The translations under genes were made by a program, and so were the position numbers. The notes under the pieces were generated by a model that saw nothing but the letters and a program-made list of their open reading frames with translations, made no database searches and was not told the DNA's origin. A stretch of 64,000 bases of DNA, taken from assembly GCF_009380155.1 (NCBI RefSeq), contig NZ_WHUV01000006.1, forward strand, positions 248,001 to 312,000, written 5' to 3'. This document shows positions 56,052-60,936 of the stretch, piece by piece (position 1 is the stretch's first letter; each line of letters starts with the position of its first letter). The DNA is from Pseudomonas piscis. GTDB lineage: Bacteria; Pseudomonadota; Gammaproteobacteria; Pseudomonadales; Pseudomonadaceae.

Positions 56052-57200
56052 ATGAGTATTTCCTCTTTCAAGATCGCCCATAAGCTGCTCACCGGCACCA
56101 GCGCCATCGAGCAACTGGCCACCGAACTGACCCGCCTGGATGTGGATAACCCGCTGATCGTCACCGATGCCGCGTTGGTCGAATCCGGCACCGTGGCGCT
56201 GGCGCTGGCCCACCTGGGGGCGCGCGACTACGAGATCTTCGATCGGGTACGGCCGGATCCGGAAATCGCCATCGTCGAGGACTGTATGCAGGTCTATCGT
56301 GATGGCGGGCACGACGGCCTGATCGGCCTGGGCGGTGGCAGCGCCATCGATATCGCCAAGAGCGTGGCGGCCTATGCCGGTTACCACGGCGCCCTGGAGG
56401 ACCTGTTCGGCGTCGACCTGGTGCCGCGCAAGGGGCCACCGCTGATCGCCATTCCCACCACCGCCGGTACCGGCTCGGAGGTGACCAACGTGGCGATCCT
56501 TTCCGACAAGGCCGCACAGTTGAAGAAGGGCATCGTCAGTGACTACCTGCTGCCGGATGTGGCGCTGGTCAGCCCGCAGATGACCCTGACCTGCCCGCGC
56601 CATGTCACCGCCGCCAGCGGTGTCGACGCCCTGGTGCACGGGGTGGAAGCCTACTTGTCGCTCAATGCCTCGCCCATCACCGATTCCCTGGCCCTGGGGG
56701 CCATCCGCCTGATCGCCAGGGCCCTGCCCAAGGCGTTCGCCAATCCGGCCAACCTAGAGGCCCGGGAGGACATGGCCACGGCCAGCCTGATGGCCGGCAT
56801 GGCTTTCGGTAACGCCGGGGTAGGGGCGGTGCATGCCCTGGCCTATCCGTTGGGCGGGCGCTTCCATATGTCCCATGGGGTCAGCAATGCCTTGTTGCTG
56901 CCCTACGTCATGACCTGGAACAAGATGGCCTGCGTCGAGCGCATGCAGGATATCGCCGCCGCCATGGGCGTGCGCACGGCGCGCTTGAGCGCCAGCGAAG
57001 CGGCGGACCGGGCCGTAGAGGCCATGGCCGATTTGTGCGCCGCCGTGGAAATTCCTGCTGGCCTGCGCGGTTTCGGCGTGCCGGAGGAGGCGATCCCGGC
57101 CATGGCCCGGGAGGCCGCCGGTATCGAGCGGCTGATGCGCAACAATCCGCGCCGGCTGAGCCCCGCCGATATCGAGCAGATCTATCGGGCGGCCTACTGA
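56052..57200 (+). CDS. Iron-containing alcohol dehydrogenase, copy 2
   Basis: A 382-residue paralogue of the dehydrogenase encoded at 53270. It has the same length and co-linear motifs ([50 protein letters not shown], and the same C-terminal [15 protein letters not shown]). By eye about three quarters of residues are identical, with most differences in the first 120 residues and around 300-335. All predicted iron ligands are kept. The pair probably arose by tandem duplication around the transporter. A frame extension upstream of 56052 lacks family similarity. I see no sigma-54 site in the 117-base gap before it. Confidence 0.92.
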
Positions 57201-57280
57201 TCATTGCGGTGACGGTGTGCGCTCCAAAGCATGAGGTATACAATGCGCGCCATCGTGATTCCGCTCAAAAAAGGTGCGTC

Positions 57281-57955
57281 ATGCAGCCCTTCGCTATTGC
57301 TCCGTCGATTCTTTCCGCCGACTTCGCCCGCCTGGGCGAGGAAGTGGACAATGTCCTGGCCGCCGGTGCCGATATCGTCCACTTCGATGTCATGGACAAC
57401 CACTATGTGCCGAACCTGACCATCGGTCCGATGGTCTGCGCTGCACTGCGCAAGTACGGGATCACTGCGCCGATTGATGCGCACCTGATGGTCAGCCCGG
57501 TGGATCGCATCATCGGCGACTTCATCGAGGCGGGCGCCACCTACATCACCTTCCACCCCGAGGCCACGCTGCATGTGGACCGTTCCCTGCAGATGATCCG
57601 CGAGGGTGGCTGCAAGGCCGGCCTGGTGTTCAACCCGGCGACCCCGCTGGATGTGCTCAAGTACGTGATGGACAAGGTCGACATGGTGCTGCTGATGAGC
57701 GTCAACCCGGGCTTCGGTGGCCAGAAGTTCATTCCCGGCACCCTGGACAAGCTGCGTGAAGCGCGGGCATTGATCGACGCTAGCGGCCGGGACATTCGCC
57801 TGGAGATCGACGGTGGCGTGAACGTTGGCAACATCCGCGAGATCGCCGCGGCCGGCGCCGACACTTTCGTCGCCGGTTCGGCGATCTTCAATGCGCCCAA
57901 CTACCAGGAAGTGATCGAGAAGATGCGCGCCGAGCTGGCGCTGGCTCGATCATGA
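57281..57955 (+). CDS. rpe: Ribulose-phosphate 3-epimerase
   Basis: A 224-residue TIM-barrel enzyme interconverting ribulose-5-phosphate and xylulose-5-phosphate in the pentose phosphate pathway. Motifs: [17 protein letters not shown] at the start, [29 protein letters not shown] and EIDGGVN. The ATG follows AAAAAAGGTGCGTC. An AT-rich TATACAAT at 57237 could be a -10, but no -35 is obvious. Its end overlaps gph by four bases (ATGA). Confidence 0.97.
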
Positions 57956-58770
57956 GTGCCTTCGAGCAGCTGTTCTCGGGGAAGCTGCCACGGCTGGTGA
58001 TGTTCGACCTGGATGGCACCCTGGTCGACTCGGTGCCCGACCTGGCCGCCGCCGTGGACCAGATGCTGCTCGAGCTGGGCCGTCCGCCCGCGGGGATCGA
58101 GGCGGTGCGCCAGTGGGTGGGCAATGGTGCACCGATGCTGGTGCGCCGGGCTCTGGCCAACAGCCTGGATCCGCAGGACATCGACGATGCCGAAGTCACC
58201 CAGGCCCTGGAGCTGTTCAACGCCGCCTACGAGGGTAGCCATGAGCTGACCGTGGTCTATCCCGGTGCGCGCGAGACCCTCAAGTGGTTGTACAAGCAGG
58301 GCGTGGAGCTGGCGCTGATCACCAACAAGCCCGAGCGCTTCGTCGCGCCCTTGCTGGACCAGATGCGCATCGGTCGCTATTTCCGCTGGATCATCGGCGG
58401 CGATACCCTGCCGCAGAAGAAGCCCGACCCGGCGGCGCTGTTCTTCGTGATGAAGATGGCCAGCATCCCGGCCTCGCAGTCGCTGTTCGTCGGCGACTCG
58501 CGCAGCGACGTGCTGGCGGCGCGGGCGGCGGGGGTCAAGTGCGTGGCGCTGAGCTACGGCTACAACCATGGACGGCCGATTGCCGAGGAGTCCCCGGCCC
58601 TGGTAATCGACGACTTGCGGGCGCTGATCCCCGGTTGCTTAGAACCTGCCGCTGAGATAACGTTGCCCGACGCTGTCCCATCCCCTTCTGGAAATTCCAT
58701 CGTGGTGGTCACTCGCAAACTCTGGATGAAAGTCATCAAGGCCTTGGCCCGTTGGCGTTGGCGCGCCTGA
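57952..58770 (+). CDS. gph: Phosphoglycolate phosphatase with a Trp-rich C-terminal tail
   Basis: A 272-residue HAD-family phosphatase that removes phosphate from 2-phosphoglycolate, a by-product of DNA repair. The nucleophile motif is [10 protein letters not shown] with Asp19 and Asp21. Motif II is [10 protein letters not shown], and the metal motif is [13 protein letters not shown]. The catalytic domain ends near residue 225 ([11 protein letters not shown]). About 45 further residues end in [20 protein letters not shown]. The last 14 codons overlap in frame a putative trpE leader peptide. Either the reading frame extends through the leader because a stop was lost, or gph translation itself serves the attenuator. 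Confidence 0.93.
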
Positions 58771-58841
58771 TTTTTGTCTGGCCGGCCCTGCCGGCGTGTT
58801 TGCATACCTGACTGTTAGACCCTCAAGCCACGAGGCATCCC
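58726..58841 (+). promoter_or_regulatory. trpE leader region / putative attenuator
   Basis: From the in-frame ATG at 58726 a 14-residue peptide, [14 protein letters not shown], with two Trp codons (58753-58755 and 58759-58761), ends at the TGA of 58768-58770. A T-rich stretch follows, then a GC hairpin GCCGGC-CCT-GCCGGC (58781-58795) and GTGTTTGC. Tandem Trp codons before a hairpin 46 bases ahead of trpE fit transcription attenuation, which has been reported for trpE and trpGDC in P. putida. The T-tract after the hairpin is poor, so the terminator is not certain. Confidence 0.65.
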
Positions 58842-60329
58842 ATGATTCGCGAAGAATTCCTGCGCCTGGCCGCAGCCGGCTACAACCGTATCCCGCTGGC
58901 CTGCGAGACCATTGCCGACTTCGACACCCCGTTGTCGATCTACCTGAAACTGGCCGACCAGCCCAACTCCTACCTCCTGGAGTCGGTGCAGGGCGGCGAG
59001 AAATGGGGACGCTACTCGATCATCGGCCTGCCGTGCCGCACCGTCCTGCGGGTGCACGGCTACCGGGTCAGCCTGACCCACGACGGCGTCGAGATCGAAA
59101 GCCACGAAGTGGCCGACCCGTTGGCCTTCGTCGAGGAATTCAAGGCGCGCTACAACGTCCCGACCATCGCCGGCCTGCCACGCTTCAACGGTGGCCTGGT
59201 GGGGTATTTCGGTTATGACTGCGTGCGTTATGTGGAGCCTCGGCTGGGCCAGTGCCCGAACCCCGACCCGATCGGCGTACCGGACATCCTGCTGATGGTT
59301 TCCGATGCGGTGGTGGTGTTCGACAACCTGGCGGGCAAGATGCACGCCATCGTGCTGGCCGATCCGAGCCAGGACAATGCCTATGAAGCTGGTCAGGCGC
59401 GCCTGCAAGAGTTGCTCGAGCAGCTGCGCCAGCCGATCACGCCACGTCGCGGCCTGGACCTGGACCGCCCGCCGGCCGCCGAGCCGGTATTCCGCTCCAG
59501 CTTTACCCAGGGCGACTACGAGCGTGCGGTGGACACCATCAAGGAGTACATCCTGGCCGGTGACTGCATGCAGGTGGTGCCGTCCCAGCGCATGTCCATC
59601 GACTTCCACGCCGCACCCATCGACCTGTACCGGGCCTTGCGCTGCTTCAACCCGACTCCCTACATGTACTTCTTCAACTTCGGTGACTTCCACGTGGTGG
59701 GCAGTTCGCCGGAGGTGCTGGTGCGGGTCGAGGACAACCTGATCACCGTGCGGCCGATCGCCGGTACTCGTCCGCGGGGCGCCACTGAGGAAGCCGACCT
59801 GGCCCTGGAACAGGACCTGTTGTCCGACGCCAAGGAGATCGCCGAGCACTTGATGCTGATCGACCTGGGGCGCAACGACACCGGGCGGGTCTCGGAAATC
59901 GGCTCGGTGCGGCTCACCGAGAAGATGGTCATCGAGCGTTATTCCAACGTGATGCATATCGTGTCCAACGTCACCGGCCAACTGAAGGCAGGCCTGACCG
60001 CGATGGACGCACTGCGGGCGATCCTGCCGGCGGGCACCTTGTCCGGCGCACCGAAGATCCGCGCCATGGAAATCATCGACGAACTGGAGCCGGTCAAGCG
60101 CGGGATCTATGGCGGAGCCGTGGGCTACTTCGCCTGGAACGGCAACATGGATACCGCCATCGCCATCCGCACGGCGGTGATCAAGGATGGTGAACTGCAT
60201 GTCCAGGCCGGTGGCGGCATCGTCGCCGACTCGGTCCCGACCCTGGAGTGGGAAGAGACGCTGAACAAGCGTCGTGCAATGTTCCGTGCCGTGGCACTGG
60301 CTGAACAAACCCCCGCATCCAAGGCTTGA
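58842..60329 (+). CDS. trpE: Anthranilate synthase component I
   Basis: A 495-residue chorismate-using enzyme that with TrpG makes anthranilate. The feedback-inhibition element [20 protein letters not shown] (LLES) is present, so it should be Trp-sensitive. Catalytic blocks: [41 protein letters not shown] and [20 protein letters not shown]. The ATG has GAGG 8 bases upstream. The gene is 13 bases before trpG, so trpEGDC can be one transcript. Confidence 0.98.
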
Positions 60330-60342
60330 GGAGTTTCCACCT

Positions 60343-60936
60343 ATGTTGCTGATGATCGATAACTACGACTCCTTTACCTATAACGTCGTGCAGTACCTGG
60401 GCGAACTGGGTGCCGAGGTGAAGGTGGTGCGCAATGACGAACTGACCGTGGCCGAGATCGAGGCGCTCAAGCCCGAGCGCATCGTGGTCTCCCCAGGCCC
60501 CTGCACGCCGACCGAGGCCGGGGTTTCCATCGAGGCGATCATGCATTTCGCCGGCAAGCTGCCGATCCTCGGCGTCTGCCTGGGCCACCAGTCCATCGGC
60601 CAGGCCTTCGGCGGCCAGGTAGTACGGGCCCGCCAGGTGATGCATGGCAAGACCAGCCCGGTATTCCACCGTGACCTGGGGGTGTTCAGCGGCCTGAACA
60701 TGCCGCTGACCGTGACCCGCTACCACTCCCTGGTGGTCAAGCGCGAGACCCTGCCCGAGTGCCTGGAGATCACCGCCTGGACCCAACTGGACGACGGCTC
60801 CGTGGACGAGATCATGGGGCTGCGGCACAAGACACTGAACATCGAGGGTGTGCAATTCCACCCTGAATCCATCCTCACCGAGCAGGGCCACGAGCTGTTC
60901 GCCAACTTCCTCAAACAGAGCGGCGGCACGCGCTAA
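60343..60936 (+). CDS. trpG: Anthranilate synthase component II (glutamine amidotransferase)
   Basis: A 197-residue class I amidotransferase supplying ammonia to TrpE. The catalytic Cys79 is in [11 protein letters not shown], and the His/Glu pair is in [13 protein letters not shown]. The start [19 protein letters not shown] is typical. It may also serve p-aminobenzoate synthesis, as TrpG does in several bacteria. The intact triad contrasts with the degenerate amidotransferase encoded at 984-1709. Confidence 0.97.

Follow-up and report, generated by a model that had tools for sequence, protein, structure and literature searches.

The DNA analyzed here (the window) is a stretch of 64,000 nucleotides from Pseudomonas piscis, numbered from its first letter. 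On the forward strand, gph runs into a short frame with three Trp codons (beginning at 58723, 58753, and 58759, as codons 8, 18, and 20) and shares its stop, TGA at 58768-58770, which lies 71 nt upstream of the trpE ATG at 58842. The features of the locus are:

57952..58770, + strand: gph, phosphoglycolate phosphatase, 272 aa (open reading frame list; Pfam, TIGR, and NCBIfam profiles)
Parts of gph, + strand: HAD domain (ending near residue 225), then ∼24 linker codons and 22 leader codons
58635..58640, + strand: putative -35 element TTGCTT of the leader promoter, in the codons for G-C-L of Gph (conservation)
58658..58663, + strand: putative -10 element TAACGT, inside the codons for I-T-L of Gph (conservation)
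58690..58693, + strand: SD-like GGAA for the leader GTG (purine-rich core upstream of the GTG in 158/158 loci where gph ends at the leader stop)
58702..58770, + strand: leader peptide frame with a probable GTG start, 22 aa, stop common with gph (conservation, SD energy)
58723..58725, + strand: first Trp codon, W8 (sequence)
58726..58728, + strand: ATG, probably an internal Met codon (no SD; not universal)
58750..58757, + strand: possible antiterminator arm CGUUGGCG, able to pair with 58789-58796 (energy model)
58753..58761, + strand: W18 and W20 codons, TGG CGT TGG (sequence; Trp-Arg-Trp conservation)
58781..58795, + strand: terminator-type hairpin GCCGGC-CCT-GCCGGC, then GTGTTTGC, a weak U run (covariation, fold)
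58832..58835, + strand: trpE ribosome-binding site GAGG (sequence)
58842..60329, + strand: trpE, anthranilate synthase component I (TIGR00564, 569 bits against a cut-off of 517.7)

Profile matches delimited the end of the Gph catalytic domain. Pfam HAD_2 covered residues 16-199, PF13242 ended at residue 224, and TIGR01449 at residue 225, leaving a tail of ∼47 residues beyond the HAD domain; a preliminary description of this locus had put the tail at ∼45. Together with the open reading frames, these profiles confirmed its claim that a leader lies in frame within the 3′ end of gph and shares the gph stop. The closest named Gph, from P. protegens FD6, was 93% identical over the best segment. Two observations favor a tail that is a functional element of the Gph protein (e.g., for interaction or stability), its residues themselves being conserved: 22 of the last 23 residues were invariant among 30 aligned close Gph proteins, and the tail is included in the NCBIfam Gph model NF009698 (PRK13223.1), which the full-length protein (residues 1-272) matched with 539 bits against a cut-off of 466. 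This model covers all 272 residues and treats the tail as protein, with regulation unmentioned. An AlphaFold model of Gph, for which 30 close homologues were used, was of low quality as a whole (mean pLDDT 55; below 50 for the last 75 residues) and was therefore uninformative on the tail. As set out below, other results bear against such a protein element.

We compared 285 loci, locating trpE, the gph end, and the leader in each; 110 of them (L001-L110) had been chosen for nearness to the window. Once 24 loci without a same-strand gph match were left out, 261 remained with gph directly upstream. The gph frame ended at the leader stop in 158 of these 261 (fused loci), made up of all 110 near loci and 48 of the 151 distant ones. 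In 96 others gph ended elsewhere and a leader with Trp codons was present, typically free-standing between gph and trpE (unfused loci). The strict Trp-codon pattern was absent from seven of the 261 (L260, L274, L277, L279, L280, L281, and L283), among which L277, L280, and L281 carried a Trp-His-Arg-Trp variant.

A Trp-Arg-Trp run with a stop within 11 codons was found in the 330 nt upstream of trpE in 253 of 259 loci of the family, a count from an uneven sample because L001-L110 were fetched for their closeness to the window. The same pattern preceded trpE in 17 of 26 loci of the order's other families, and it occurred in 198 of 4858 control windows from the same 285 loci (4.1%). The near-tandem Trp codons that had been noticed before trpE are thus deeply conserved, and the comparison indicates that this leader end is older than the family. 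A chance open reading frame was ruled out by the conservation of the Trp-Arg-Trp leader. Of 252 leaders, 230 had at least one further Trp codon 5′ of the Trp-Arg-Trp end, at a variable place, and 22 had none. Two marks of an attenuator are present: Trp codons clustered in a short frame directly before trpE, and a leader ribosome-binding site and start codon (a GTG with a purine-rich core, as judged by conservation and energy).

The preliminary description had the leader begin at the ATG at 58726. Beyond what it listed, we found a third Trp codon just before this ATG, a GGAA eight bases 5′ of an in-frame GTG at 58702, and a promoter pattern with a 17-bp spacer in the tail. The ATG is in frame and common at codon -14 (153/158 fused and 81/96 unfused loci). 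An in-frame GTG 20-32 codons upstream of the stop was present in 158/158 fused and 94/96 unfused leader loci, a count qualified by the fact that the site was searched for as GTG, so that the alignment and the variability of the second codon are the better evidence. GTG stood at codon -22 in 127 fused and 53 unfused loci, and the second leader codon, GTG in 197 of 252 leaders, was taken from 16 other codons among the remainder. The leaders of L146 and L155 had no GTG start. In the 62 fused loci of the tree described below, the mean duplex energy was -3.25 at the leader GTG, against a background of -2.14 at random gph positions, a modest SD that is better than background by ∼1 kcal/mol. The corresponding mean was +0.87 at the ATG (57 fused tree loci), against the same background, and the SD energy for trpE averaged -5.84 (62 fused tree loci). 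Moreover, the ATG was missing from the otherwise intact leaders of L193, L198, and L144. Since the GTG is near-universal with a modest SD, and the ATG has no SD and is sometimes missing, we rejected the ATG and placed the start at GTG 58702; most likely, the leader is a 22-residue peptide with three Trp codons. That it starts at the ATG after all, or that it lacks an initiation site and is made only as the C terminus of Gph, is very unlikely, as relatives have stand-alone leaders and a conserved promoter pattern lies just upstream. What stands of the earlier leader reading is the in-frame leader with its conserved Trp codons and hairpin, and what falls is the ATG as its start.

A consensus promoter scan of the window matched no promoter, so we sought one through conservation. 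The gph tail in the window contains the pattern TTGCTT-N17-TAACGT. We scored 89 unfused loci and set aside seven with a score below 11, leaving 82. The 17-bp spacer of the general form TTGNNN-N17-TANNNT was seen in all 62 fused tree loci and in 80 of the 82 well-scored unfused ones; the other two had a spacer of 18 bp. The distance from the end of the -10 to the GTG was 32-44 bases in fused and 27-71 bases in unfused loci. In the largest fused group (119 loci), pairwise differences were 0.00 (to two decimals) at each of the nine positions of the codons ATA ACG TTG that hold the -10. Third-position differences in this group were likewise 0.00 in the GGT TGC codons of the -35, with TTGC invariant and the fifth -35 base varying freely. 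We infer from this conservation that the promoter of the trpE leader lies, and would be active, inside the gph tail.

The predicted hairpin begins ten bases past the leader stop in the window. RNAalifold returned only a weak consensus over the whole leader-hairpin alignment, and we therefore tested the hairpin on fixed columns, the best-scoring column pair being chosen first and the outermost column being mostly gaps. Across 142 distinct sequences, 92-93% of cells in the five pairs were paired, with G-C to C-G and U-A exchanges; the next-best column pairs were the same helix one pair further in or out. In a shuffle control run on the best choice, the natural value exceeded the shuffled one by a small gap (0.929 versus 0.906), and 0 of 500 shuffles reached it. 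By itself, the window RNA folded modestly better than its shuffles (z -1.38; 22 of 200 as good). An Rfam scan of window positions 57000-60500 gave no leader family up to an E value of 5, and three unrelated weak matches. Another hairpin-like match at 58754-58775 (58754-58767 in the scan), GGCGTTGGCGCGCC then TGATTTTTGT, overlaps the Trp codons; its T run was not general among the relatives aligned. Both the Trp codons and the hairpin, whose conservation the preliminary description had proposed checking across Pseudomonas, are thus deeply conserved in relatives.

We then modeled folding in 116 of the 142 distinct sequences, those with the five standard hairpin pairs and a GTG. When the RNA was free only from the leader stop onward, the modeled hairpin probability averaged 0.96-0.99. 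It was 0.60 when RNA was free from 6 bases before the stop and 0.17-0.43 when free from 12-36 bases before it, the value at 12 being 0.17. Without a ribosome, the whole leader RNA formed the hairpin in 0.59 of cases (0.93 in the window). The possible antiterminator arm was likewise seen in a model fold, of window RNA from 18 nt 5′ of the leader stop. Natural leaders were also compared with synonymous recodings in every second fold-model locus (58 loci). With RNA free from -12, the hairpin probability was 0.161 for natural versus 0.323 for recoded leaders, the natural one being lower in 50 of 58 loci. Suppression by natural leaders was somewhat stronger in 39 of 58 loci with RNA free from -6; the direction reversed at -24 (0.237 natural versus 0.179 recoded), and we observed no difference at -36 (0.419 versus 0.397; 58 loci).

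A modeled ribosome stalled at W18 or W20 left the hairpin mostly intact (0.60-0.96), so that, of the Trp codons, only an upstream one such as W8 would agree with the classical scheme; stalling at W18 or W20 agrees with it poorly. Control might instead be non-classical, for example by a larger hairpin that forms after ribosome release and acts as the terminator, blocked by a ribosome stalled at W18 or W20, or by Rho acting past the leader. The Trp codons sit at the very end of the leader, also in 17 of 26 loci outside the family, and a longer pairing ends at the same U-poor site, where the U run is weak. Against this, the element that covaries is the short hairpin, which starts just past a ribosome at the stop. 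We consider non-classical control doubtful, though well worth keeping in mind, and retain classical attenuation as the preferred reading.

The unfused loci suggest how gph came to include the leader. In 40 of the 82 scored unfused loci (e.g., L181 and L144), the gph stop lies within the promoter hexamers. It is the TGA of a -35 TTGATT in 11 of the 82 and the start of the -10 in 29 (TAG in 25, TAA in 4). In 62/62 fused tree loci, the fourth -35 base is C, in the frame where TTGATT would yield TGA. Loss of this TGA by a single base is the simplest path to the gph-leader fusion that the comparison offers.

We built a tree from the trp/gph locus itself, with 162 rows made up of 14 of the 110 near loci and 148 of the 151 distant loci (at least 200 Gph residues). 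In the free tree, fused rows fell into two groups. A tree constrained to hold 65 rows together (the 62 fused loci, L134, L213, and L279, the last grouped with the fused rows for the AU test though its tail may be unrelated) had a better likelihood and an AU p of 0.725. As this constraint gave the better likelihood and was not rejected, we take a single origin of the fusion as likely, although not proven. The preliminary description had read the arrangement as a gene tail serving as an attenuator leader; in the comparison, the tail does not look like a part of gph turned into a leader. The free-standing leader, which carries a promoter pattern, an SD, and a GTG of its own, appears to predate the fusion, and gph would have run into it on loss of its stop. 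Separately, L279, from a small, fragmented genome, is without promoter, leader, and hairpin (about positions 1150-1300 of that locus), and its gph overlaps trpE by ATGA.

Codon-position differences and pN/pS were measured in the group with a 24-codon linker and a 22-codon leader (119 loci, 106 distinct sequences), pN/pS being taken from 1500 random pairs among the 106. Outside the promoter, SD, and start, the linker had a pN/pS of 0.947, against 0.105 in gph, and its differences were flat across codon positions (0.185, 0.145, and 0.190) compared with those of gph (0.078, 0.049, and 0.341). The linker residues outside the promoter and SD therefore appear to drift neutrally after the fusion. The leader had a pN/pS of 0.174 and a pS of 0.053, versus 0.488 in gph, i.e., ∼ninefold fewer synonymous differences, from which we conclude that the leader RNA is constrained as well as the peptide. 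These values bear against a protein element in the tail, as do the -10 codons frozen at third positions and the conservation of the same leader residues where the leader is free-standing. We regard a protein element as extremely unlikely, and rejected the tail as a protein domain in view of the neutral linker. Rather than residues being conserved and the RNA not, it is the linker residues that drift, and the -10, the leader, and the hairpin that are conserved.

The reading frame behaves differently from the residues. Among the 82 unfused loci, the spacer between the -10 and the GTG took 18 lengths covering every phase, whereas the 62 fused tree loci showed only lengths of 32, 38, 41, or 44. 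The fused branches of the two groups (length 4.44) carried one frame-changing length change between the -10 and the GTG, against 12.1 expected from the 16 on near unfused branches (length 5.87; conditional binomial p 0.001). The near unfused branches were those of clades A, C, and D (56 loci), picked after the tree had been seen and with clade B (4 usable loci) omitted. Frame-keeping length changes were not depleted (∼3 on fused versus 5 on near unfused branches; ∼4 expected). Over the whole tree, frame-changing changes numbered 2 on fused versus 27 on unfused branches (82 unfused loci; 9.1 expected, P 0.006). We also found no stop among 297 inferred linker changes in 132 of the 158 fused loci, where 3.9 were expected (P 0.02), a test made weaker because fused loci are defined by the open frame.

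Two loci depart from this pattern. In L134 and L213, gph also runs across the promoter, but in another phase, which closes at the leader start, and the leader is kept; the two may once have shared the frame and lost it, or may never have shared it, and in-frame fusion is dispensable in them, since they are out of frame yet keep the leader. Besides these, the gph stop lies beyond the start of the -10 in L180, L176, and L177, the last two having poorly scored promoters. When the 62 fused loci were shifted into the L134/L213 phase, reading ended within the leader in 57. With a +2 shift, it reached the interval between hairpin and trpE, or trpE itself, in 45; in the other loci, reading ended 5′ of the GTG (13) or shortly after the leader stop (4). 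This suggests, from a small number of events, that the selected trait is that gph ribosomes do not cross the attenuator in the wrong phase.

One rival is a historical accident, in which the gph stop was lost, the tail is harmless, and the frame persists by descent without selection. The neutral linker residues (pN/pS 0.947), the leaders standing alone in relatives, the out-of-frame L134 and L213, and the low overall number of length changes (4 or 5 on fused branches) all speak for it. The selective depletion of frame-changing (1 versus 12.1 expected) and not of frame-keeping changes (3 versus ∼4), and the zero nonsense among 297 linker changes, speak against it, and we judge an accident unlikely. 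Evolution appears instead to have kept the frame while the added residues drift.

We propose that the gph tail has swallowed a Trp-responsive attenuator of trpE, a reading to which, as the whole explanation, we assign a probability of roughly 0.72. Ancestrally, gph would have stopped before or inside the promoter, often with the stop codon in the -35 or -10 hexamer. A change from TTGATT to TTGCNT in the -35 would have removed the stop; the frames would have agreed by chance, so that gph now extends across the promoter and 5′ leader as far as the leader stop. The promoter in the gph tail would initiate a short transcript, on which ribosomes would start at GTG 58702 to make a 22-residue leader with Trp codons 8, 18, and 20. 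When Trp is plentiful, the GC-rich hairpin, which begins just beyond the RNA that a ribosome at the leader stop would cover, would terminate transcription. When Trp decoding is slow, most easily at W8, the leader end would be free to pair with the hairpin arms, and RNA polymerase would continue. Gph ribosomes on rpe-gph transcripts would then cross the attenuator in register, and the frame would be kept, probably since wrong-frame ribosomes would often run past the hairpin toward trpE. Sequence comparison carries this reading through the conserved promoter pattern, GTG, leader, and hairpin, the two architectures, the apparently neutral linker, and the depleted frame changes. Which way the change went, that the promoter is active and the tail translated, that attenuation occurs, where ribosomes stall, and why the frame is kept are inferences.

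The rpe stop (rpe being named by TIGR01163) overlaps the gph start as ATGA at 57952-57955, which suggests translational coupling and an rpe-gph transcript that enters the attenuator. The preliminary claim that ribosomes translating gph would traverse the Trp codons was supported: the leader is in frame and frame changes are depleted after fusion, so that these ribosomes would pass in register. A dual use of the gph tail as leader is plausible, although not proven. That Gph ribosomes in the fused clade are themselves Trp sensors, or at least must pass the attenuator in register, we put at slightly less than even odds. If so, transcripts from rpe-gph and from the internal trpE promoter would come under one Trp-dependent decision, and selection across the fused clade would preserve a reading frame and not a protein.

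Attenuation of P. putida trpE and trpGDC, with effects of miaA mutations, was reportedly the subject of work by Olekhnovich and Gussin in 2001 (J Bacteriol 183:3256), to go by its title. Going by that title, the P. putida trpE case involves the same operon and genus and the same function as we propose here, so the attenuator itself is not new. Unlike in the P. putida system, trpG directly follows trpE in the window, and a single leader would thus serve trpEGDC. In E. coli, the trpL leader has 14 residues with Trp at codons 10 and 11 (PMC1183508). It resembles the present leader in being a short frame with Trp codons before a trp operon with competing hairpins; it differs in that Trp is here at 8, 18, and 20, the hairpin lies 10 nt past the stop, and the leader doubles as the end of another gene. 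For P. aeruginosa trpGDC, one study describes premature 3′ ends beside a potential GTG-start upstream open reading frame, with early termination predicted in AZM-treated biofilms only (PMC8297930). That case concerns trpGDC, and ours trpE; the word gph is absent from the text of PMC8297930.

Among the best-matching papers, mostly open-access literature, none addressed a gph-leader overlap by its title or abstract opening, a silence that is weak evidence of novelty. What we describe belongs to a familiar type of trp attenuator, but its setting is unusual: one gene is read across the promoter and the leader of the operon that follows it. The new points are the fusion, the stop codons embedded in the promoter, and the retained frame. 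In effect, nature has run an experiment at this locus: by apparently one base change, a promoter, a 5′ leader, and an attenuator were made protein-coding. At the gph-trpE junction, selection acting on the reading frame can be told apart from that acting on residues, and the junction is also a direct test case of whether ribosomes from an upstream gene can serve an attenuator. More generally, what is annotated as the C-terminal tail of a protein can be regulatory DNA that is translated, and a single-species reading may misplace both a leader start and a protein end.

Downstream, trpG (TIGR00566) begins 13 bases after trpE (window 60329-60343) and was adjacent to trpE in 53 of the 62 loci with a same-strand trpG match in range. 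It is followed by genes that we take, by sight, to be trpD and trpC, and the attenuator here is probably that of trpEGDC. Finally, six loci (L112, L133, L143, L182, L185, and L206) have ∼50-140 extra bases between the leader stop and trpE, with the leader intact.
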